From: Celeribacter marinus
Lineage (GTDB): Bacteria > Pseudomonadota > Alphaproteobacteria > Rhodobacterales > Rhodobacteraceae
DNA length: 64,000 nt
Direction of reading: 5' to 3'
Assembly (NCBI RefSeq): GCF_001308265.1
Contig: NZ_CP012023.1
Coordinates: forward strand, 310,001-374,000
Both the position numbers and the translations under genes were made by a program. The notes under the pieces were generated by a model. It saw only the letters and a list, made by a program, of their open reading frames with translations, was not told where the DNA came from and ran no database searches. Of this stretch, positions 21,192-31,525 are shown in pieces (the stretch's first letter is position 1; each line of letters starts with the position of its first letter).

Positions 21192-21935
21192 TTAGGCGTT
21201 CTGCGCCGCTTTCCATGCCTCGAAACGGGTCAATGTATCGGGATCTGTTGGTGGATACAGACCAATGACGGCCACGCCGCGCAAGATCTCTTCGAGCACA
21301 AAATCCTCGAATTGCTCCATCGGTGCGCCTTCGTCGGCGATTTCATTGGCGAGGTGGCGGGGGATAACCATCGTGCCATCTGCGTCCCCAAGGACGATGT
21401 CACCGGGGTAGACCGCAACACCGCCACAGCTGATCGGCACATCAATGTCGATGGCGTGGTGTTTGGTCAAATTGGTCGGGGCGGATGGCTTTGCCGCAAA
21501 CACCGGCATATCCAGTTTGGCGGCACCTGCGGCATCGCGAATACCACCGTCTGTGACAACACCGGCACCGCCGCGCACCTGAAGGCGGGTCAACAAAATC
21601 GAGCCTGCGGAGGCCGCTGTTGCATCCTGACGGCAATCCATCACCAACACATGGCCCTCAGGACAAGTTTCAATCGCCACACGCTGCGGATGATCAAGCT
21701 CGCGAAACGCCTCAATTGGATCGGTGTCTTCGCGCGCCGCGATGTAGCGCAGAGTAAACGCTGGTCCGACCATGCGCGGGCTGTCAGGGTTGAGGGGCAT
21801 GACACCTTGAACGTAGCAGGTTTTAAAGCCCTTTTTGTAGAGCAAGGTGGCAACTGTCGCGGTGCTGATCCCTTTGAGACGGCTCAGTGTATCGGCGTTG
21901 AGGGGCAGCGCGGAGGCGGGTTGTGGGTTTGGCAT
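21192..21935 (-). CDS. RraA-like / HMG-CHA aldolase family protein
   Basis: A 247-residue member of the family that includes RNase E regulator RraA and class II 4-hydroxy-4-methyl-2-oxoglutarate / 4-carboxy-4-hydroxy-2-oxoadipate aldolases. The signature stretch GAGVVTDGGIRDAAG with the Arg-Asp pair used for metal and pyruvate-enolate chemistry in the aldolases is present, as is GDIVLGDADGTMVIPRHLA. It is longer than RraA itself, which favours a catabolic enzyme acting on an oxo-acid. It is divergent from the kdgF-like gene across an ATACTAGTA-type operator, so it probably belongs to the uronate regulon; the actual substrate is unknown. Confidence 0.8.
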   Translation of the reverse strand: MPNPQPASALPLNADTLSRLKGISTATVATLLYKKGFKTCYVQGVMPLNPDSPRMVGPAFTLRYIAAREDTDPIEAFRELDHPQRVAIETCPEGHVLVMDCRQDATAASAGSILLTRLQVRGGAGVVTDGGIRDAAGAAKLDMPVFAAKPSAPTNLTKHHAIDIDVPISCGGVAVYPGDIVLGDADGTMVIPRHLANEIADEGAPMEQFEDFVLEEILRGVAVIGLYPPTDPDTLTRFEAWKAAQNA

Positions 21936-22082
21936 AAGGCGTCCTGTTCTGAAGATGGATTATGTGAGGTGGCGGAGGTCACCGCACCTGTGTGTCTGGA
22001 GCGTGGTCAATTTCTGTTTGGGGTAGCTGCAAAAAGGATAGGGCGGGCATCACGTTGATGGCTTTCCTGATTGAATTGAGAC

Positions 22083-22092
22083 TAGTATACTA
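22083..22092. promoter_or_regulatory. Uronate regulon operator, site 1
   Basis: TAGTATACTA is a perfect 10-base palindrome and overlaps ACTAGTATAC (22081-22090). It lies in the gap between the divergent RraA-like and kdgF-like genes. Closely related palindromes occur upstream of the other transcription units of this cluster, so it is probably bound by the GntR regulator encoded at 23513. Confidence 0.65.
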
Positions 22093-22130
22093 CCGTTCAT
22101 TATTTTGTCTCATAAAAAGGAAAACACCCG

Positions 22131-22442
22131 ATGAGCACACTTCCCGTTGTTTCGACTGGCGAGGATGTCACGCGGCAGGTTTTGGCGGATCATCCTGATT
22201 TGATGGTCGTGGCCTTTCGGTTTGGTGCGGTGGGTGCCGAAGGTGCGTTGCACCATCATCCGCATATTCAATCGACGTTTGTCGAAAGCGGGAGGTTCCG
22301 ATTCACGGTTGGCGATGAGCAAACGGAGGTGGCCGCAGGTGACAGCTTTGTCATTCCGACCGAGGCCGTGCATGGCTGTGTGTGTTTGGAGCCTGGCACA
22401 TTGATCGATTGCTTCACGCCACGGCGCGACGACTTTTTGTAA
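22131..22442 (+). CDS. kdgF: KdgF-type cupin (unsaturated uronate processing)
   Basis: A 103-residue single-domain cupin that resembles KdgF. KdgF converts 4,5-unsaturated monouronates from pectin or alginate lyases into linear keto forms. The metal-binding pattern is intact: HHHPH (about 40-44) and a later His in EAVHGCVCLEPG, with the family-typical tail IDCFTPRRDDFL. It is divergent from the RraA-like gene and converges on a uronate-reductase-like SDR. The symbol is offered by similarity of these motifs; a generic sugar-binding cupin is the alternative. Confidence 0.8.
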   Translation: MSTLPVVSTGEDVTRQVLADHPDLMVVAFRFGAVGAEGALHHHPHIQSTFVESGRFRFTVGDEQTEVAAGDSFVIPTEAVHGCVCLEPGTLIDCFTPRRDDFL

Positions 22443-22454
22443 GTCCTACAGAGT

Positions 22455-22490
22455 GATACGGCGCGCCATGACAGCGCGCCGTGTCGTTTT
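22455..22490 (+). terminator. Terminator after kdgF
   Basis: GATACGGCGCGC pairs with GCGCGCCGTGTC (one G-U) around a 7-base loop and is followed by TTTT. It lies 13 bases after the kdgF stop and also separates it from the converging SDR gene. Confidence 0.85.
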
Positions 22491-23232
22491 AGCTAAACAA
22501 CATGCCGCCATTGATATCGAGGTTTGCACCGGTGATGAACGCCGCTTGATCGCTGGCGAGATAGGTCACCAGATTGGCAACATCCATGGACGTGCCTTGG
22601 CGTTTCAATGGGGTGGCCCCCTCAACAATTTTGCGCACTTCCGGCTTTGTAAAGATGTTGTGGAAATCGGTGTCGATCATGCCGGGGCAAACGGCATTAA
22701 CGCGCACATCGGGACCAAGCTCTTTGGCCAAACCGCGAGTCATCGTCATCACCGCACCTTTGGATGTGGCATATGCAATGGCACCGCCGCCACCGCCGTC
22801 ACGACCCGCTTGGCTCGCGAGGTTGATGATTGCGCCGCTTTTAAGGTGGGGAAGGCAGGCTTTGACCATCAAGAACGTGCTTGTCAGGTTGAGGTCCATC
22901 ACCGCGTTCCAATGCTCAAGAGACATCTCGGAAATGGTTTTGCGCGCGATCAGGCCGCCGGTATTGTTGACCAAAATGTCAACGCCGCCAAATTCGGATA
23001 CGGCTTTGGCAACCAACGCGTCTACACCCTCTTGGGTGTTGAGATCGCCCTGAAGGGCCACCGCTTTACCGCCTGCGGCAGTGATGGCAGCCACGGCGGC
23101 GTCTGCGCCTTCGCTGCTTGAGAAGTAGTTGAGCACAACGTTTGCGCCTGCTTGTGCGAGACGCTCGGCACATGCGCGACCAATGTCACGTCCTGCGCCC
23201 GTTACGATTGCTGTTTTGCCCTGAAGTGTCAT
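22489..23232 (-). CDS. Short-chain dehydrogenase, probable 4-deoxy-5-hexoseulose uronate reductase type
   Basis: Classical SDR of 247 residues. It has the cofactor motif [10 protein letters not shown] (about 10-19), NNTGG, and a catalytic YATSK with an upstream Ser in [14 protein letters not shown]. The stretches [27 protein letters not shown] and [17 protein letters not shown] recall the alginate-monomer reductases of the Sphingomonas A1-R type, and the kdgF-like neighbour supports that reading; 3-oxoacyl-ACP reductase-like activity is the generic alternative. The ATG at 23232 has AGGAG with a 7-base spacer, better than the ATG two codons upstream. It is divergent from gntR across two operator copies. 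Confidence 0.8.
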
Positions 23233-23340
23233 GCGCATTCTCCTGCGTTCATTTGCTCTGATATCGTCCCACGGGGGTGCGGATGTTTGATCCGAACGCG
23301 GTGCGCGGGGATGGGATTCGTCTAAATTGCAAAAACTGGT

Positions 23341-23368
23341 ATACTAGTAACGAAACAGGGATACTAGT
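23341..23368. promoter_or_regulatory. Uronate regulon operators, sites 2 and 3
   Basis: TACTAGTA (23342-23349) and ATACTAGTT (23361-23369) repeat the same ACTAGT core exactly 20 bases apart, that is, on the same helical face, in the gap between the divergent SDR and gntR genes. Tandem same-face operators fit cooperative binding of an FCD-GntR dimer and autoregulation. Confidence 0.7.
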
Positions 23369-23512
23369 TGTAAATGTGACAAAGACGCTCCACGCATGCG
23401 GGGTACGTGCACAAAGCGGCGCGACCCTACGCGTCATCGTATGAACACATATGCACAACTAGAACTTTATAAGAGATTGAGCTAAGAGACACCGACTTAA
23501 AGGATGCGAGAC

Positions 23513-24196
23513 ATGGAACCGATCATTCAAACACGTGATAGCCGCACAAATGTGGATATTATTTTTGACCATCTTTACGATGAGATCACATCCCTTGGCC
23601 TCTTGCCGGGTACAAAAATTTCCGAAGCTGATATCGCTGCGCGCTTTGGTGTGTCACGCCAACCGGTGCGCGATGCGTTTAGCCGCCTTGAAAACATGGA
23701 TCTGGTTTTAATCCGGCGTCAAAAGGCAACAGAGGTGAAGCGCTTCTCTCTCCATGCGATCACCAAGGCCCGTTTTATCCGTGCCGCGGTCGAATCCGAA
23801 GTGCTGCGGCGCGCGGCGCGTGAATGTGGTCCGGCCGAGGCGGCTTTGCTCGAGGACTGTCTGGATCAACAACGCGCCGCTGTGGCCGCGGGCGATCATA
23901 TCGAATTTGGCGTGTTGGATTATGAGTTCCACCAGACCTTATGTGACATTGCAAAGGTCGCGTTTGCCTTTGATGTCATTTCAGCTGAGAAGGCCAAAGT
24001 GGACCGGTTATGCCTCTTGGGTCTGTCCAAACTGGACCGTATGCCGGACCTGCTGGCCGATCACGTGGCCATTGCCGCCGCTGTTCAGGCGGGCAACGCC
24101 GATGGCGCGGTCGAGGTGGGCATGATGCACTTGTCGCGCCTTGACGCGACAATCGAGGCCATCATCGAGCAACAAAGCAACTATTTCGAAGCATGA
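23513..24196 (+). CDS. GntR-family (FadR subfamily, FCD domain) regulator
   Basis: A 227-residue regulator with an N-terminal winged helix (about 12-75, including GTKISEADIAARFGVSRQPV) and a C-terminal FCD ligand-binding helical bundle with the metal-site histidines expected in this fold (for example in EFHQTLCD and ADHVAIAAAV). FCD-GntR proteins commonly sense uronates and related sugar acids. The ATG at 23513 sits 8 bases after AAGGA; the ATG three codons earlier has no spacing. Its position amid kdgF, the SDR and the TRAP genes, all carrying the same palindrome upstream, makes it the likely local repressor. Confidence 0.88.
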   Translation: MEPIIQTRDSRTNVDIIFDHLYDEITSLGLLPGTKISEADIAARFGVSRQPVRDAFSRLENMDLVLIRRQKATEVKRFSLHAITKARFIRAAVESEVLRRAARECGPAEAALLEDCLDQQRAAVAAGDHIEFGVLDYEFHQTLCDIAKVAFAFDVISAEKAKVDRLCLLGLSKLDRMPDLLADHVAIAAAVQAGNADGAVEVGMMHLSRLDATIEAIIEQQSNYFEA

Positions 24197-24526
24197 CCCG
24201 ATAGCGCGGTGTTGTTAGGGGCGGCTTCGCAAGAGGCGGTCTTTGGTTGGCCGCGCGATCGGCGGATTTGCACCAACGCGATGTTGGATGCGGCGGGGCA
24301 ATTGTATGCACGCATCGGGTAATCCGCGCCCGCAACCATAAATATACCCATTTAAATCATCATATTAGGCCGTAATCCGTGCTTCGCCGCGTGCCAAAAG
24401 TCAGACTCATTTTGACAGGCCAACTATACTAATATACTAGTATTTGCGTGAGCAGCGACTCGGAGCGTGGAGACCTCCGCAAGACGGGTCGCATTGCCGC
24501 CATTTAATTGATCAGGGAGGATCAAA
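24197..24526 (+). promoter_or_regulatory. Intergenic region upstream of the TRAP operon with operator site 4
   Basis: The region holds no recognised gene. ATACTAGTAT at 24434-24443 is a perfect 10-base palindrome and the best copy of the cluster motif; a degenerate copy TATACTAATA (24425-24434) abuts it. It lies about 85 bases before dctP, a plausible promoter position. A short unassigned open frame (24209-24322, 37 codons, GTG start, no visible Shine-Dalgarno) ends before the operator and might be a gene remnant; I do not recognise it. Confidence 0.6.
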
Positions 24527-25513
24527 ATGAGTTTTCTAAGCGGAATGAAAAAAGTGGCACTTGGTGCCGTATTGGCTGGTACAGCTGCAACAACAGCGGG
24601 CGCGGTCGAACTGCGCGGCTGGAACATCCACGTCGAGGACTATCCTGTGTCCATCGCAATGGATTCGTTCATGGCAGAAGTTGCCGAGCGCACCAACGGT
24701 GACGTGACAGGCAAAACCTACCACAACGGCGTTTTGGGTAGCCAGCCAGACGCAATCGAACAGATCCGCCTCGGCGTCATCGACTTTGGTGAATTCAGCC
24801 TCGGCCCAATGGGTCAGTCGATCCCTGAAACCAACGTTGTGTCCTTGCCCTTCATCTTCAAAAGCATCCCACAGATGTATGAGTTGATGGACGGCGCAGT
24901 CGGCGACGCAATCGGCGAAGGCATGAAAGCCAAAGGTATCGTGCCACTAGGTTGGTATGACGCTGGTGCACGTTCGTTCTACAACTCCGTGCGTCCGATC
25001 AACACGCCTGCCGATGTTGAAGGTCTCAAAATTCGTGTCATGAGCAACGATCTGTTCGTGAAAATGGTTGAATCCATGGACGGCAACGCGACACCAATGG
25101 CGTTTGCCGAGGTGTATCAGTCGATCAAGACGGGCGTTGTTGACGGTGCGGAAAACAACCCGCCATCCTACGACTCGACCAACCACTTTGAAGTTGCGAA
25201 ATACTACTCGCTCACCGAGCACCTGATCATTCCTGAATGTCTCTGCATGAGCTTGAAGTCATGGGAAAAACTCACTGCTGATCAGCAGGAAATTCTCAAA
25301 GATGCAGGTCACAAGAGTGCTGTTCTTCAGCGCGAACTTTGGGCCGCACGCGAAGCCAAGAGCATGGAAACGGTTAAGGCCGGTGGCACAGAAGTGAACA
25401 CAATCGCTGACAAAGCACCGTTTCAGGCGGCTATGGCTCCGGTCTACGAGAGCTTTCTTGCCAACAACCCAGATCTAACTGGCCTTGTCGACATGATCCG
25501 CAACGCCGACTAA
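24527..25513 (+). CDS. dctP: TRAP transporter substrate-binding protein (DctP family), probable uronate
   Basis: Periplasmic binding protein of a TRAP transporter. The 328-residue precursor has a signal peptide (cleavage near residue 26) and the DctP fold, with the conserved arginine that clamps the substrate carboxylate in GLKIRVMSNDLF and the GVVDGAENNPPSYDSTNHFEVA motif seen in sugar-acid binders. AGGGAGG precedes the ATG. Substrate prediction as a uronate or keto-uronate rests on gene context, not on a measured match. A hairpin just downstream may let it be made in excess over the membrane subunits. Confidence 0.9.
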   Translation: MSFLSGMKKVALGAVLAGTAATTAGAVELRGWNIHVEDYPVSIAMDSFMAEVAERTNGDVTGKTYHNGVLGSQPDAIEQIRLGVIDFGEFSLGPMGQSIPETNVVSLPFIFKSIPQMYELMDGAVGDAIGEGMKAKGIVPLGWYDAGARSFYNSVRPINTPADVEGLKIRVMSNDLFVKMVESMDGNATPMAFAEVYQSIKTGVVDGAENNPPSYDSTNHFEVAKYYSLTEHLIIPECLCMSLKSWEKLTADQQEILKDAGHKSAVLQRELWAAREAKSMETVKAGGTEVNTIADKAPFQAAMAPVYESFLANNPDLTGLVDMIRNAD

Positions 25514-25532
25514 TCCGGCTTTGATCTCTAAG

Positions 25533-25565
25533 AGGCCCGTTTGTGTAAGTGCAAGCGGGCCTTTT
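25533..25565 (+). terminator. Intra-operon attenuating hairpin between dctP and dctQ
   Basis: AGGCCCGTTTG pairs with CAAGCGGGCCT (11 pairs, one G-U) and is followed by TTTT. It lies 17 bases after the dctP stop, inside the dctPQM operon, and would reduce read-through so that the binding protein exceeds the permease subunits. Confidence 0.8.
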
Positions 25566-25607
25566 GGTTTCATCTTTTGCCAGTCCAATCGCTATGCGGA
25601 GGCCCAC

Positions 25608-26138
25608 ATGTCGCATGCATCCCCAGTCCTTACTTTTTTTGAACGCGCACTCGATCGTATCAGCGCGTTATGCCTGTTGGTCGCGTCAATCGCGCTGATT
25701 GTTTTGATTGCCACTTTCGGGTGGCTCGTCTTTGGGCGTTATGTACTCAATGTCACGCCGACATGGGTGGAACAACTCGCTCTCCTTCTCATTTGTTATA
25801 TCGCGTTTCTGGGCGCCGCCGCGGGGGTCAAGGAAGACACCCATATCGGTGTGACGCTGTTTCGCGAAATGCTGCCATTTGGCGCGCAAAAGGTTGTGAT
25901 GATCGTCATTGATCTGATCTTGGCGGCTTTTGGCACCATCATGCTCATCGCAGGCATATCGTTGATGCAATTCGGCTGGTCGACGCTGCTGCCGATGCTC
26001 GATATCCCCGAGAGCTTTCGCACCCTTGCGATTACCTCGTGCGGCGCACTTACGTTGATGTTCGCCGGAACGCGCGCCGCAGTGCGTATTTTGAAATTTC
26101 GGGCGTGGTCGCCTGACGACGCTTACAAGGATAACTAA
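25608..26138 (+). CDS. dctQ: TRAP transporter small permease (DctQ family)
   Basis: The 176-residue small membrane subunit of the TRAP transporter with four hydrophobic helices (about 18-40, 53-72, 92-115, 131-155) and the family segment WVEQLALLLICYIAFLGAAAG. The ATG at 25608 follows GGAGG; upstream codons in the same frame include the hairpin and are not conserved. It ends 2 bases before dctM. Confidence 0.9.
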   Translation: MSHASPVLTFFERALDRISALCLLVASIALIVLIATFGWLVFGRYVLNVTPTWVEQLALLLICYIAFLGAAAGVKEDTHIGVTLFREMLPFGAQKVVMIVIDLILAAFGTIMLIAGISLMQFGWSTLLPMLDIPESFRTLAITSCGALTLMFAGTRAAVRILKFRAWSPDDAYKDN

Positions 26139-26140
26139 AC

Positions 26141-27421
26141 ATGGGATTGGCCATTTTATTAGGCGTCTTTGGCGTCGGTGTTGTGATCGGCTTTCCGGTT
26201 GCGTTCGCCATGGGAATTGCAGCGGCCTCCGCGTTTTGGTTCGAGGGCTTTCCAATGCTCATTACGTTCCAGCGCGCCACGGCGGGCGTCACTGTCTTTT
26301 CGCTCCTCGCCATTCCGTTCTTTGTGTTTGCGGGCGAGATCATGCTGCACGGCGGGATCGCCTCGCGATTGGTCAAATTGGCCTCGGCCTTGGTTGGCCA
26401 CCTCAAAGGCGGCTTGGCGATGGTCAACATCTTTTCAAGCATGCTGTTCGGGGGCATCTCCGGGTCGGCCGTTGCCGACATTTCGGCCCTTGGATCGCTC
26501 TTGGTCCCTGTGATGAAAGAACGCGGGTACCGACCTGATTTTGCGGTGAACGTCACCGTGACCTCATCTATCGCGGGTATCGTCATCCCGCCAAGCCATA
26601 ATATGATCATCTTTGCCGTAGCGGCGGGCGGGGGCATTTCCGTGTCCAAGCTGTTCCTTGCGGGTGTGATCCCTGGCATCTTGATGTGTGTCAGCTTGGC
26701 CATTGCAGCCTATATTTTGTCGATCAAGCACAACTATCCGTCCGAGCCGTTTCCGGGTTGGCGCGCGGTTGGTCGGGCCTCTGCCGATGCGATCCCCGGT
26801 TTCATGACGGCGGTTATCATCGTTGGCGGCACGCTATCGGGTGTGTTCACGGTCACGGAATCCGGTGCATTTGGTGCGCTTTACGCGGTGTTCCTCACAC
26901 GCTTCTACTACCGCAGCTTGAGCATGTCCGCGTTCAAACTGGCCGTGGTCGGCGCTGTGCGCACCACCGCAATGGTGATGATCCTGATCGCATTCGCAAG
27001 CTCGTTTGCGTATCTGTTGGCCTTGTACCAAGTCCCTGAAAAGCTCAGCAATCTCTTGGTGTCGATCTCCGACAATCCGATTGTGATCTTGTTGATGATC
27101 AACATCATTTTGTTGATCCTCGGGATGATCATGGACATGGCTGCGTTGATCTTGATCTGTACGCCGATCTTTTTGCCGATTGCCGTTGGCCTTGGCATGG
27201 ATCCCACCCAGTTCGGGATTATGATGTTGATCAACCTTGGTTTGGGTCTGTGCACACCACCCGTTGGAACCTGTTTGTTCGTCGGCTGCGCCGTGGGCAA
27301 AATTAAGATCGAAGAGGCGCTCAAATCCATTTGGCCATTCTATCTGGCGATTTTGGCAGCACTTTTGTTGGTCACCTATGTGCCGGCTGTGTCGCTTTGG
27401 TTGCCATCTTTGTACAACTAA
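26141..27421 (+). CDS. dctM: TRAP transporter large permease (DctM family)
   Basis: The 426-residue large subunit that forms the sodium-coupled elevator of the transporter. It is almost wholly hydrophobic with about 12 helices, and carries the DctM motifs GGISGSAVADISALGSLLVP, IVIPPSHNMI and, near the C-terminus, GLGLCTPPVGTCLFVGCAVG. It is the last gene of dctPQM and is closed by a terminator. Confidence 0.95.
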   Translation: MGLAILLGVFGVGVVIGFPVAFAMGIAAASAFWFEGFPMLITFQRATAGVTVFSLLAIPFFVFAGEIMLHGGIASRLVKLASALVGHLKGGLAMVNIFSSMLFGGISGSAVADISALGSLLVPVMKERGYRPDFAVNVTVTSSIAGIVIPPSHNMIIFAVAAGGGISVSKLFLAGVIPGILMCVSLAIAAYILSIKHNYPSEPFPGWRAVGRASADAIPGFMTAVIIVGGTLSGVFTVTESGAFGALYAVFLTRFYYRSLSMSAFKLAVVGAVRTTAMVMILIAFASSFAYLLALYQVPEKLSNLLVSISDNPIVILLMINIILLILGMIMDMAALILICTPIFLPIAVGLGMDPTQFGIMMLINLGLGLCTPPVGTCLFVGCAVGKIKIEEALKSIWPFYLAILAALLLVTYVPAVSLWLPSLYN

Positions 27422-27485: not shown

Positions 27486-27517
27486 GGCCACGGTGCACCG
27501 CGCATCGTGGCCTTTTT
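27486..27517 (+). terminator. Terminator of the dctPQM operon
   Basis: GGCCACG and CGTGGCC enclose a 13-base loop and are followed by TTTTT, 65 bases after dctM. Confidence 0.8.
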
Positions 27518-29723: not shown

Positions 29724-30635
29724 TCAAAGGGCGTAAGCGACCGCAATTTGTGCAGCAAGGCGCGCGTTGTTGCGCACCAAGGCGATGTTCGCGACCAAGG
29801 AACGGCCTTCGGTCAACTCGAACATGCGCTGTAGCAAGAACGGGGTGACGGCCTTGGCGGCGATGCCTTGGGCCTCGGCCTCTGCGAGGGCTTGTTCTAC
29901 GTAGGGCATGATAATGTCGCGTGTGATCTCGTCGGCCAGCGGGATTGGATTAGCGACCAGTTGACCGCCCTTGAGGCCCATGGCCGCACGCGTCTTTGCG
30001 GATTTGGCGATCAATGCAGGATCATCAAGGCGCAGCGGGGCGGTAATACCGGACTCACGCGACCAAAAAGCGGGTAACGCATCTTGACCATATGCAATCA
30101 CCGGCACGCCGTGGGTTTCCAACACTTCGAGCGTCTTGGGGATATCAAGAATGGCTTTGGGACCGGCTGCAACCACGGTCACAGGCGTTTCGCCCAGCTC
30201 CAACAGGTCGGCGGAGATATCGAATGTCTCTTGGGCACCGCGGTGAACGCCGCCGATCCCGCCCGTTGCAAAGACCGAAATCCCCGCCATGTGCGCCGCA
30301 ATCATGGTTGCCGCAACGGTTGTGGCCCCTGTAGCCCCTTTGGCGATACATACCGGCATATCGGCGCGCGACACTTTCATTACGTCCGTGGCTTGGGCCA
30401 GTTCGGTGAGTTGCGCGTCCGTCAGTCCGATATGCAAGACACCGTTCAAAATCGCGATGGTCGCAGGTGTGGCCCCTGCGGCGCGCACATCGGCCTCGAC
30501 CATCTGCGCGGTCTCGACGTTTTGAGGGTAGGGCATCCCGTGGGTGATGATCGTGCTCTCCAAGGCCACAACAGGAGCGCCCGCTTTGAGGGCCGTGGCA
30601 ACTTCGGGCGAATAGGTCAGGGGCAGGGTGGTCAT
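29724..30635 (-). CDS. psuG: Pseudouridine-5'-phosphate glycosidase
   Basis: PsuG cleaves pseudouridine 5'-phosphate to uracil and ribose 5-phosphate. The 303-residue protein has the family opening ALESTIITHGMPYPQN (about 25-40) with the catalytic Glu, a conserved lysine in ADMPVCIAKGATGATTVAA, and FATGGIGGVHRGAQETFDIS. Its ATG overlaps the stop of the upstream kinase gene, so the two enzymes of pseudouridine salvage are coupled. No dedicated transporter is adjacent. Confidence 0.96.
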   Translation of the reverse strand: MTTLPLTYSPEVATALKAGAPVVALESTIITHGMPYPQNVETAQMVEADVRAAGATPATIAILNGVLHIGLTDAQLTELAQATDVMKVSRADMPVCIAKGATGATTVAATMIAAHMAGISVFATGGIGGVHRGAQETFDISADLLELGETPVTVVAAGPKAILDIPKTLEVLETHGVPVIAYGQDALPAFWSRESGITAPLRLDDPALIAKSAKTRAAMGLKGGQLVANPIPLADEITRDIIMPYVEQALAEAEAQGIAAKAVTPFLLQRMFELTEGRSLVANIALVRNNARLAAQIAVAYAL

Positions 30636-31525
30636 AGTGGTGTGTCTCCAGAAACATAGTGGGCAGCGGCTTGTAGCGCTTGGGTCAATGCGGCTTCATC
30701 ACTTGCGCCGCGCAGCTCGGCCGCGATGTGCGCGGCCATAAACGTGTCGCCCGCACCGGTGACGCGGGCCACCAAAACCTCGGGTGGGGTTTGGGTAATG
30801 AGATGACCAGCGCGTGCCAATGACGCATCGTGGCCACCATTGGTGACGAGGACACGGTGCGCGCCGAGTTCAACCAATGCTGTCGCAGCATCGGCCGCAC
30901 TGTCGAAGGCGCGATGCGCCAAAAGGCCGGCCTCTTCCAAATTGACGTACAGCGTAGCTTTGGGATGTGTGAGCAGGGGCATCAACCGCTCCGCCTTACC
31001 CGGTGAGGCGGGGGCCACACGCAGATCGGCCAAGGCAAAGACCGGCGAACGGGCAATATCGCGTAGCAATTCCGTGGTCAGATTGCCGTCCAGCGCAACA
31101 AGACCACAATAGGGGGCGTGCTCAGAGCCAAGGCGTCCATCTTTGAGCGGGCGCAAAATTTTGTCACCTGCCGCCTCAAGCGAGTGGGCATCGGCAATCG
31201 CCGCGATCAACCCGTTTGCACCCTCGATGGCCATATAGGTGTCGGTGGGCAAATCGTCGGAGCGGTAGACATGAGCGGTTTCAATCCCGCGCACGGTGGC
31301 CGCCGCGATCAATTCATCGCCCTCGGCATCCCGCCCAACGGCCGTGAGCACGGACGGCGCAAGTCCGAAGCGTGACAGGGCCATGGCAATATTCATCGCC
31401 ACACCGCCCGGCACACGCACAATGCGTCCGGGCACGTCCGATCCGACCCTCATCGAGCGGTCAGAGCGGCCAATGATGTCCCAAAGAACGGACCCGATAC
31501 AAAGGATGTCAGGATGTTGTGTCAT
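30632..31525 (-). CDS. psuK: Pseudouridine kinase (PfkB family)
   Basis: PfkB-type kinase of 297 residues expected to phosphorylate pseudouridine for PsuG. It has IGSVLWDIIGR at the N-terminus, the PfkB substrate signature GGVAMNIAMALSRFG (about 39-53) and the C-terminal ATP/anion-hole signature VTGAGDTFMAA with the catalytic Asp. The ATG at 31525 gives a normal kinase N-terminus; the long upstream open stretch runs into the rpsB promoter region and is not coding. The assignment as pseudouridine kinase rather than another nucleoside kinase rests on its overlap with psuG. Confidence 0.92.
   Translation of the reverse strand: MTQHPDILCIGSVLWDIIGRSDRSMRVGSDVPGRIVRVPGGVAMNIAMALSRFGLAPSVLTAVGRDAEGDELIAAATVRGIETAHVYRSDDLPTDTYMAIEGANGLIAAIADAHSLEAAGDKILRPLKDGRLGSEHAPYCGLVALDGNLTTELLRDIARSPVFALADLRVAPASPGKAERLMPLLTHPKATLYVNLEEAGLLAHRAFDSAADAATALVELGAHRVLVTNGGHDASLARAGHLITQTPPEVLVARVTGAGDTFMAAHIAAELRGASDEAALTQALQAAAHYVSGDTPL

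Follow-up and report, generated by a model that had tools for sequence, protein, structure and literature searches.

A predicted uronate-monomer island with an RraA-family enzyme and an operator-like palindrome in Celeribacter marinus

The 3.10-Mb single-contig genome of Celeribacter marinus carries, in a 64 kb stretch of DNA (C1:310001-374000; hereafter the window, whose positions are numbered from its first letter), a gene cluster at 21192-27421 that encodes an RraA-like protein, a KdgF-like cupin, a short-chain dehydrogenase/reductase (SDR), a GntR regulator of the FCD type and the three subunits of a DctPQM tripartite ATP-independent periplasmic (TRAP) transporter. This gene set, named in an initial annotation, is confirmed here: every named open reading frame (ORF) is open, family models are matched and the gene order is kept in relatives. 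We present evidence that this is almost certainly a uronate cluster and that it probably acts on unsaturated or 4-deoxy uronates. The explanation that best accounts for the observations as a whole, and that we favor on balance, is a GntR-controlled uronate-monomer island comprising import, conversion by cupin and SDR to 2-keto-3-deoxygluconate (KDG), and an oxidative branch through RraA.

In the proposed pathway, DctPQM would import D-uronates and probably also unsaturated or 4-deoxy uronates, the cupin would open the unsaturated ring to give 4-deoxy-L-erythro-5-hexoseulose uronate (DEHU), and the SDR would convert DEHU mainly to KDG, which would be finished by a KDG kinase (KdgK) and a 2-keto-3-deoxy-6-phosphogluconate (KDPG) aldolase encoded elsewhere in the genome. 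The SDR, like the FlRed enzyme described below, may also oxidize DEHU to 2-keto-3-deoxy-hexarate. RraA would dehydrate and decarboxylate this compound to alpha-ketoglutaric semialdehyde, and an unlinked aldehyde dehydrogenase (C1:673922-675403) would oxidize the semialdehyde to 2-oxoglutarate. We infer every substrate in this scheme and, above all, the RraA reaction.

Conservation of the cluster and of its palindrome

Gene families, neighborhood conservation, the shared palindrome and the downstream homologues in the genome were all computed. Among 292 genomes of the order Rhodobacterales, homologues were found of the SDR in 76 (E<=1e-60), of RraA in 61 (E<=1e-70), of the cupin in 92 (E<=1e-12) and of DctP in 96 (E<=1e-75), and PF16332 was found in 32. 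The combination of PF16332 with Hepar_II_III_C is taken here to denote polysaccharide lyase family 15 (PL15). The SDR gene is present in 30 of the 32 PF16332 genomes and in 46 genomes without PF16332 (Fisher p 6e-18, uncorrected for kinship). Of 80 SDR places, which include that of the window, 54 have a cupin gene within 15 kb, 40 have dctP (counted with the top 67 of 97 DctP matches, down to 50% identity) and 23 have rraA; a search for lyases beside these homologous clusters found PL15 within the same distance at 28.

Neighboring genes were tallied in 77 of the 79 SDR loci fetched from outside the window (L098 and L099 were left out), with the names of neighbor clusters resting on one representative per cluster. 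KdgK occurs in 29 of these neighborhoods, PL15 in 27, UxuA in 14, KduI and KduD in nine each, and UxaC in seven, such that 46 of the 77 hold at least one of PL15, KdgK, UxuA, KduI, KduD, UxaC and UxuB. None of the 77 lacks both a TRAP DctP gene (two families counted) and a uronate enzyme gene, and the opposing case, in which homologous clusters never co-occur with uronate genes, thus fails. In the closest named relative, Pacificibacter marinus (L191), DctMQP, RraA, cupin, SDR and GntR are encoded together at 64-93% identity. The grouping exceeds chance, and the homologues stay together in relatives.

The promoter regions of the cluster share a palindrome, ACTAGTATACTAGT. With up to three mismatches allowed, the window contains four sites against 0.17 expected, a number reached by none of 100 shuffles, and all four fall in the cluster's three promoter regions, with none elsewhere in the window. 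The divergent rraA/cupin region holds ACTAGTATACTACC (22081..22094, two mismatches), which overlaps promoter-like hexamers on both strands; the divergent region between the SDR gene and gntR holds ACTGGTATACTAGT (23335..23348, one mismatch) and a weaker copy with three mismatches (23355..23368); and ACTAATATACTAGT (24428..24441, one mismatch) lies 5' of dctP. The GntR/FCD regulator encoded at 23504..24196 (+ strand) is the presumed binder of these sites. Another GntR protein, AusR, reportedly regulates alginate genes in Zobellia.

The palindrome was also sought in 84 loci, which include the window and in which L041 and L107 overlap (same record). At up to two mismatches there are 104 intergenic and no genic sites, where "intergenic" depends on a gene caller that overlooked short genes such as the window cupin; 65 of the 84 loci have a site, and for 100 permuted control palindromes the mean number of sites was 2.0 and the highest 18. 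It occurs in 28 of the 31 loci with PL15. In 19 loci, all of them with PL15, a total of 30 sites fall between GntR and UgpC genes, and 15 sites lie between GntR and SDR genes. At up to three mismatches, the palindrome precedes 39 of the 65 gntR genes of related loci, and it lies within 250 bp upstream of just two of 17 rraA genes. A three-mismatch site is also present in the divergent KdgK/UxaC promoter of the window genome (0.04 expected in 18 kb). This distribution is consistent with pairing of the GntR protein with the palindrome, and its occurrence in both the cluster promoters and most PL15 loci suggests that these are under the control of one GntR regulon. Of the new evidence presented here, the most useful is that lyase-bearing loci have this palindrome too. 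Among the titles and opening parts of abstracts searched, none describes the combination of TRAP transporter, KdgF, SDR and RraA; the palindrome sequence itself was not looked up, so we do not claim that the operator is unpublished.

Proposed transport, ring opening and reduction

All three TRAP subunits score above the cut-offs of their family models. The solute-binding protein DctP (24527..25513, +) matches PF03480, the small permease DctQ (25608..26138, +; start set by eye, the listed ORF opening at 25521 with TTG) matches PF04290, and the large permease DctM (26141..27421, +) matches PF06808. The best matches of DctP in the PDB are 4pf8, 4ovq and 4p1l, followed by 4x8r (277.9 bits) and 4n8y (270.6 bits), and structural alignments of a predicted model (mean predicted local distance difference test score 83.6) with 4pf8 give 69-72% identity. 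As 4N8Y is galacturonate-bound and 4X8R glucuronate-bound, according to the excerpt consulted of PMC11668362, these nearest solved relatives lead us to propose that the window DctP is uronate-binding.

The cupin (22131..22442, +; PF07883) is the proposed enzyme for linearizing the unsaturated uronate to DEHU. Four of its six best PDB entries are named KdgF or pectin degradation protein (5fq0 twice, 5fpz and 5fpx), and they align to residues 7 or 13 through 103 of 103, a near full-length similarity. The top entry, 7zyb, is titled merely "Cupin", and no NCBIfam model matched the protein.

The SDR (22489..23238, -) is the proposed DEHU reductase/dehydrogenase. Among solved chains, the closest to it in sequence are 4yqy from Sulfitobacter, a target of the Enzyme Function Initiative (EFI), and 3edm from Agrobacterium, both titled as dehydrogenases only; among the 25 best of 229 NCBIfam models, only the generic PRK07231 is above its cut-off. 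Entries 3afm, 3afn and 4w7h, which we take to be the alginate-monomer reductases A1-R and A1-R', rank among generic SDRs in the PDB search. Assignment of the SDR as KduD was rejected: TIGR01832 (cut-off 338.85) lies outside the best 25 models, the 25th of which scores 162.1, and identity to KduD is 33-36%. The KduD of the window genome is a separate gene that scores 375.3 bits on TIGR01832. In other loci (L119, L151, L160, L161, L172 and others), the SDR repeatedly has near it a beta-hydroxyacid dehydrogenase that its best NCBIfam model marks as GarR-like. Because the GarR-like DehR-2 of Vibrio C42 reduces DEHU (PMC13390454, in excerpt), many SDR clusters may encode two DEHU reductases.

The initial annotation described a cluster with neither lyase nor KDG kinase, and for the cluster itself this description holds. 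No polysaccharide lyase is encoded at 21192-27421, and PF16332 has no match genome-wide; the genome-wide search did not extend to PL5, PL6 or PL7, and it covered PL17 via PF07940 only. The sole PF07940 protein of the genome follows, by eye, an apparent rRNA-methyltransferase fragment. A lyase-free cluster is compatible with a monomer pathway, which needs no lyase. Since the genome-wide lyase search covered few families, it is plausible, rather than established, that the monomers come from the lyases of other organisms.

There is likewise no KDG kinase gene inside the cluster; for the genome the description does not hold, as a KdgK-like kinase is encoded at C1:248154-249026, about 82 kb from the cluster. 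This protein is 50% identical to a relative's KdgK, and its best family model is the KdgK equivalog (250.5 against a cut-off of 400). The kinase gene belongs to a second uronate locus (C1:240000-258000; L188:8158-14562), directly past xylose genes, that also encodes a GntR/FCD protein (41% identical to the cluster GntR), UxaC, KduI, KduD and a fructuronate-reductase-like protein. Two genes of the KDPG-aldolase family PF01081 are above cut-off elsewhere in the genome.

Two observations count against unsaturated substrates. The DctP relatives with a sourced ligand bind saturated uronates, and import of the unsaturated monomer is a proposal; further, the palindrome is present in 37 of the 53 loci without PL15 and so tags uronate loci generally, not those for alginate alone. 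Both would be expected if the cluster handled only saturated hexuronates (D-glucuronate or D-galacturonate), with the cupin and SDR acting on these or on by-products, as would the position of dctP beside UxaC/UxuB-type genes in L105, L160, L161 and L172. We regard this alternative as unlikely: the KdgF-like cupin and the PL15-linked SDR point instead to lyase products, and UxaC, KduI and KduD are encoded at the separate locus of the window genome. The initial proposal of uronate import and first processing stands, supported by the gene neighborhoods, the solved relatives of DctP and the palindrome common to PL15 loci.

The RraA-family enzyme and its candidate pathway

The RraA-like protein (21192..21935, -; 247 aa) matches PF03737 with 112.5 bits and NF006093 (PRK08245) with 321.9 bits (cut-off 208), and is the proposed 2-keto-3-deoxy-hexarate dehydratase/decarboxylase. 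The initial annotation regarded it as a non-standard member of such clusters and a possible new branch step, a view that must be revised in light of its presence near 23 of the 80 SDR places and of a precedent in Flavobacterium UMI-01 (PMC8563752, 2021). In the excerpt of that report, FlRed both reduces DEHU and oxidizes it, the latter activity being lost when the enzyme bears a C-terminal tag, the RraA-family enzyme FlDet (237 aa) converts 2-keto-3-deoxy-hexarate to alpha-ketoglutaric semialdehyde while accepting none of KDG, KDPG and DEHU, and FlDeg completes the pathway.

Related loci of this kind were collected from the family of a Lutibacter genome, in which 34 of 378 genomes gave RraA matches and neighbors were read in 21; their assignment to the Flavobacteriaceae is our interpretation. 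The window RraA is 54-59% identical to these Flavobacteriaceae-type relatives, 20 of whose 21 loci hold a PL6, PL7 or PL17-type gene (PF14592 presumably marking PL6 alginate lyases), and the SDR of one such locus (L313) is 46% identical to the window SDR. In a comparison by N-terminus only, some of these RraA proteins match up to 12 of the 19 residues of the published N-terminus of FlDet. Closer relatives were drawn from the best 80 of 575 RraA matches (L191-L270). The SDR is encoded near eight of the ten closest of them (L191-L200, 69-87% identity).

The semialdehyde product requires a further oxidation, for which a gene at C1:673922-675403 is a candidate. The NADP+-dependent aldehyde dehydrogenase class includes alpha-ketoglutaric semialdehyde dehydrogenases. 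The encoded protein is 67% identical to a dehydrogenase whose gene, in relatives, is tightly grouped with those of SDR and RraA, the three lying within about 7 kb in nine genomes (G001, G008, G041, G070, G071, G093, G109, G142 and G193). On this similarity it is a putative alpha-ketoglutaric semialdehyde dehydrogenase. A three-mismatch operator-like site lies about 0.1 kb upstream of the gene (0.07 expected in 19 kb).

In Nereida sp. MMG025 (L200:750-10360), an RraA of the window clade is encoded with uronate-dehydrogenase-like, SMP-30-type lactonase, enolase-superfamily and aldehyde dehydrogenase proteins and a TRAP transporter. This cluster appears to specify an oxidative sugar-acid pathway of the uronate or pentose type. 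Together with the neighborhoods that combine RraA and dehydrogenase, it lends support to a semialdehyde-forming role for RraA, to which we assign an even chance.

Several results weigh against this role. In a tree of 124 RraA rows, which left out five of 30 Flavobacteriaceae-type loci (three not extracted, two of odd length), the window clade (17 rows, support 100/97) is set apart from the Flavobacteriaceae-type clade (26 rows, 100/100), and a TRAP-RraA-SDR-dehydrogenase clade forms a third group (seven rows, 100/100). A joint clade of the window and Flavobacteriaceae-type rows was not rejected by the approximately unbiased test (p-AU 0.119), nor was a second joint clade (p-AU 0.31); the test covered these two of the three pairings, that of Flavobacteriaceae-type rows with the TRAP block being the third. 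As neither joint clade was rejected, the idea that RraA was recruited independently to uronate clusters was dropped. The window clade has K/R at residue 158 and H at residue 160, where most Flavobacteriaceae-type rows have L and Q, and with K/R-H-H in place of L-H-Q at 158-160 the substrate of the window RraA may differ from that of FlDet. No clean discriminating column is common to all three alginate/uronate groups, and H160 is also found in three of 59 rows linked to an IlvD-type dehydratase.

The neighbors of RraA add to these difficulties, as window-clade genes usually adjoin KdgK (in seven of the nine loci L191-L199) and not aldehyde dehydrogenase. The candidate dehydrogenase is below the cut-off of every NCBIfam model shown (101 against 750 for 2,5-dioxovalerate dehydrogenase), and a homologue (E<=1e-100) is missing from four (G044, G095, G182 and G287) of the eight genomes, the window's among them, with SDR and RraA at 68% identity or more. 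A conserved operator 5' of the dehydrogenase gene was sought and rejected: only one of 33 homologues, the window's own, has the site, as does none of ten in-cluster homologues, so the site may be local or due to chance.

Three other roles for RraA were considered. Membership of the Aldolase/RraA Pfam family and the lack of a kinase in the window cluster would fit a pyruvate-type aldolase with KDG, or a 2-keto acid related to it, as its substrate, which would allow KDG kinase to be bypassed by a phosphate-free route. This role is quite improbable. The models for 4-hydroxy-4-methyl-2-oxoglutarate/4-carboxy-4-hydroxy-2-oxoadipate aldolase score below half their cut-offs (NF006731, 86.6 against 179; TIGR02798, 78.5 against 304.5), and that assignment was rejected; relatives of RraA that adjoin aldehyde dehydrogenase fit a semialdehyde product, and FlDet was inactive on KDG and KDPG in the excerpt cited above (PMC8563752). 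The adjacency of RraA to KdgK also speaks against an aldolase, and because of it we dropped the idea that RraA replaces KdgK.

A second role, that of a 2-keto-3-deoxy-pentonate dehydratase-like enzyme for pentose acids, present here by chance or in a mixed-substrate function, finds its basis among more distant relatives. An IlvD/EDD-type dehydratase, defined by a match of at least 40% identity to one Rhizobium dehydratase, is encoded near 59 of the best 80 RraA relatives, in Alpha- and Betaproteobacteria, most of them with about 58-63% identity to the window RraA. These IlvD-linked proteins perhaps represent an unrecognized 2-keto-3-deoxy-pentonate step, and copies on plasmids have been annotated as regulators of ribonuclease. 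In one close relative, L192, there is a weak IlvD match (38%) at a distance of about 5 kb. For the window protein we consider the pentonate role a long shot: at the 40% threshold none of the ten closest relatives has IlvD nearby, against the eight with SDR, and the well-supported window clade has its own K/R-H-H motif. Finally, regulation of RNase E, for which the name "ribonuclease activity regulator RraA" in records of relatives might speak, is dismissed as exceedingly improbable, given catabolic neighborhoods and equivalog models far under their cut-offs (NF006875, 47.1 against 136; TIGR02998, 20.7 against 241.25).

Cluster layout and comparison with known systems

From the strands and gaps, the cluster seems to comprise several transcription units: rraA (-), cupin (+), SDR (-), gntR (+) and dctPQM (+). 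An inverted repeat noted by eye where the cupin and SDR genes converge (22458..22482) is a possible two-way terminator. A terminator-like hairpin of 18 pairs (25528..25567, +) lies between dctP and dctQ and may tilt expression toward the binding protein over the permease, and another with a T run (27486..27512, +) follows dctM. One flank of the cluster is a choline/betaine-type block (OpuAC, a BetI-type regulator, aldehyde dehydrogenase and GMC oxidoreductase); gene names in this block and at the xylose locus that lack a family match are presumed ones. Beyond the dctM hairpin lie a gene of the carboxymuconolactone-decarboxylase family and then a TetR gene. Further on, at 29724-31504 (-), an Indigoidine_A-family gene adjoins a PfkB kinase gene, a pair that we assume probably serves pseudouridine catabolism.

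We regard the cluster as a uronate-monomer island of known kind, in which the co-located RraA branch may be a known and rarely recognized oxidative route. A broader proposal, which we advance tentatively, is that one Rhodobacterales GntR/FCD regulon, marked by the palindrome, joins lyase-bearing degraders and lyase-free scavengers, and that in some scavengers the K/R-H-H clade of RraA sends part of the 4-deoxy-uronate via hexarate to 2-oxoglutarate, bypassing KDG. If so, the organism would scavenge monomers, relying on the alginate lyases of its neighbors, with catabolism split between reductive and oxidative routes. The palindrome and TRAP transporter with KdgF-like cupin, SDR and RraA in the absence of a PL15 lyase may provide a testable genetic marker for marine monomer-feeders, which bears on seaweed-carbon cycling. 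The results also suggest that the enzymology of FlDet, known from a single report, may extend to a large RraA-family group named as RNase regulators in databases.

Four known systems, described here from excerpts of the cited reports, bear comparison with the cluster. With the KdgF-DehR-KdgK-Eda alginate-monomer pathway of Vibrio sp. C42 (PMC13390454) and Sphingomonas A1 (PMC8778563) it shares a KdgF-like cupin, a candidate DEHU-reductase SDR, a GntR regulator and a secondary tripartite transporter. The window genome also has genes for a KdgK-like protein and for proteins of the KDPG-aldolase family, but these are unlinked to the cluster, which differs further in having no lyase, in the addition of RraA and in the use of a TRAP system where Vibrio C42 has tripartite tricarboxylate (TTT) and sodium-solute symporter (SSS) transporters. 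The FlRed-FlDet-FlDeg system of Flavobacterium UMI-01 (PMC8563752) offers an SDR, an RraA-family enzyme of similar length and a semialdehyde dehydrogenase, the last with a candidate counterpart in the window genome, and RraA-family members lie in alginate loci; the window dehydrogenase, however, is unlinked and a candidate only, and the K/R-H-H motif departs from the L-H-Q of most Flavobacteriaceae-type rows, a difference known at the level of sequence. In PL15 operons of the Falsirhodobacter alg1/Agrobacterium Atu3025 type (PMC4866713), the SDR beside the DUF4962 gene of F. algicola (L041) is 73% identical to the window SDR, whereas a PF16332 lyase is absent from the window genome and the cluster has no sugar ATP-binding cassette transporter beside it. 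Lastly, the window DctP, compared by sequence and model, belongs to the same family as the EFI-solved TRAP binding proteins (4pf8, 4ovq, 4p1l, 4x8r and 4n8y).

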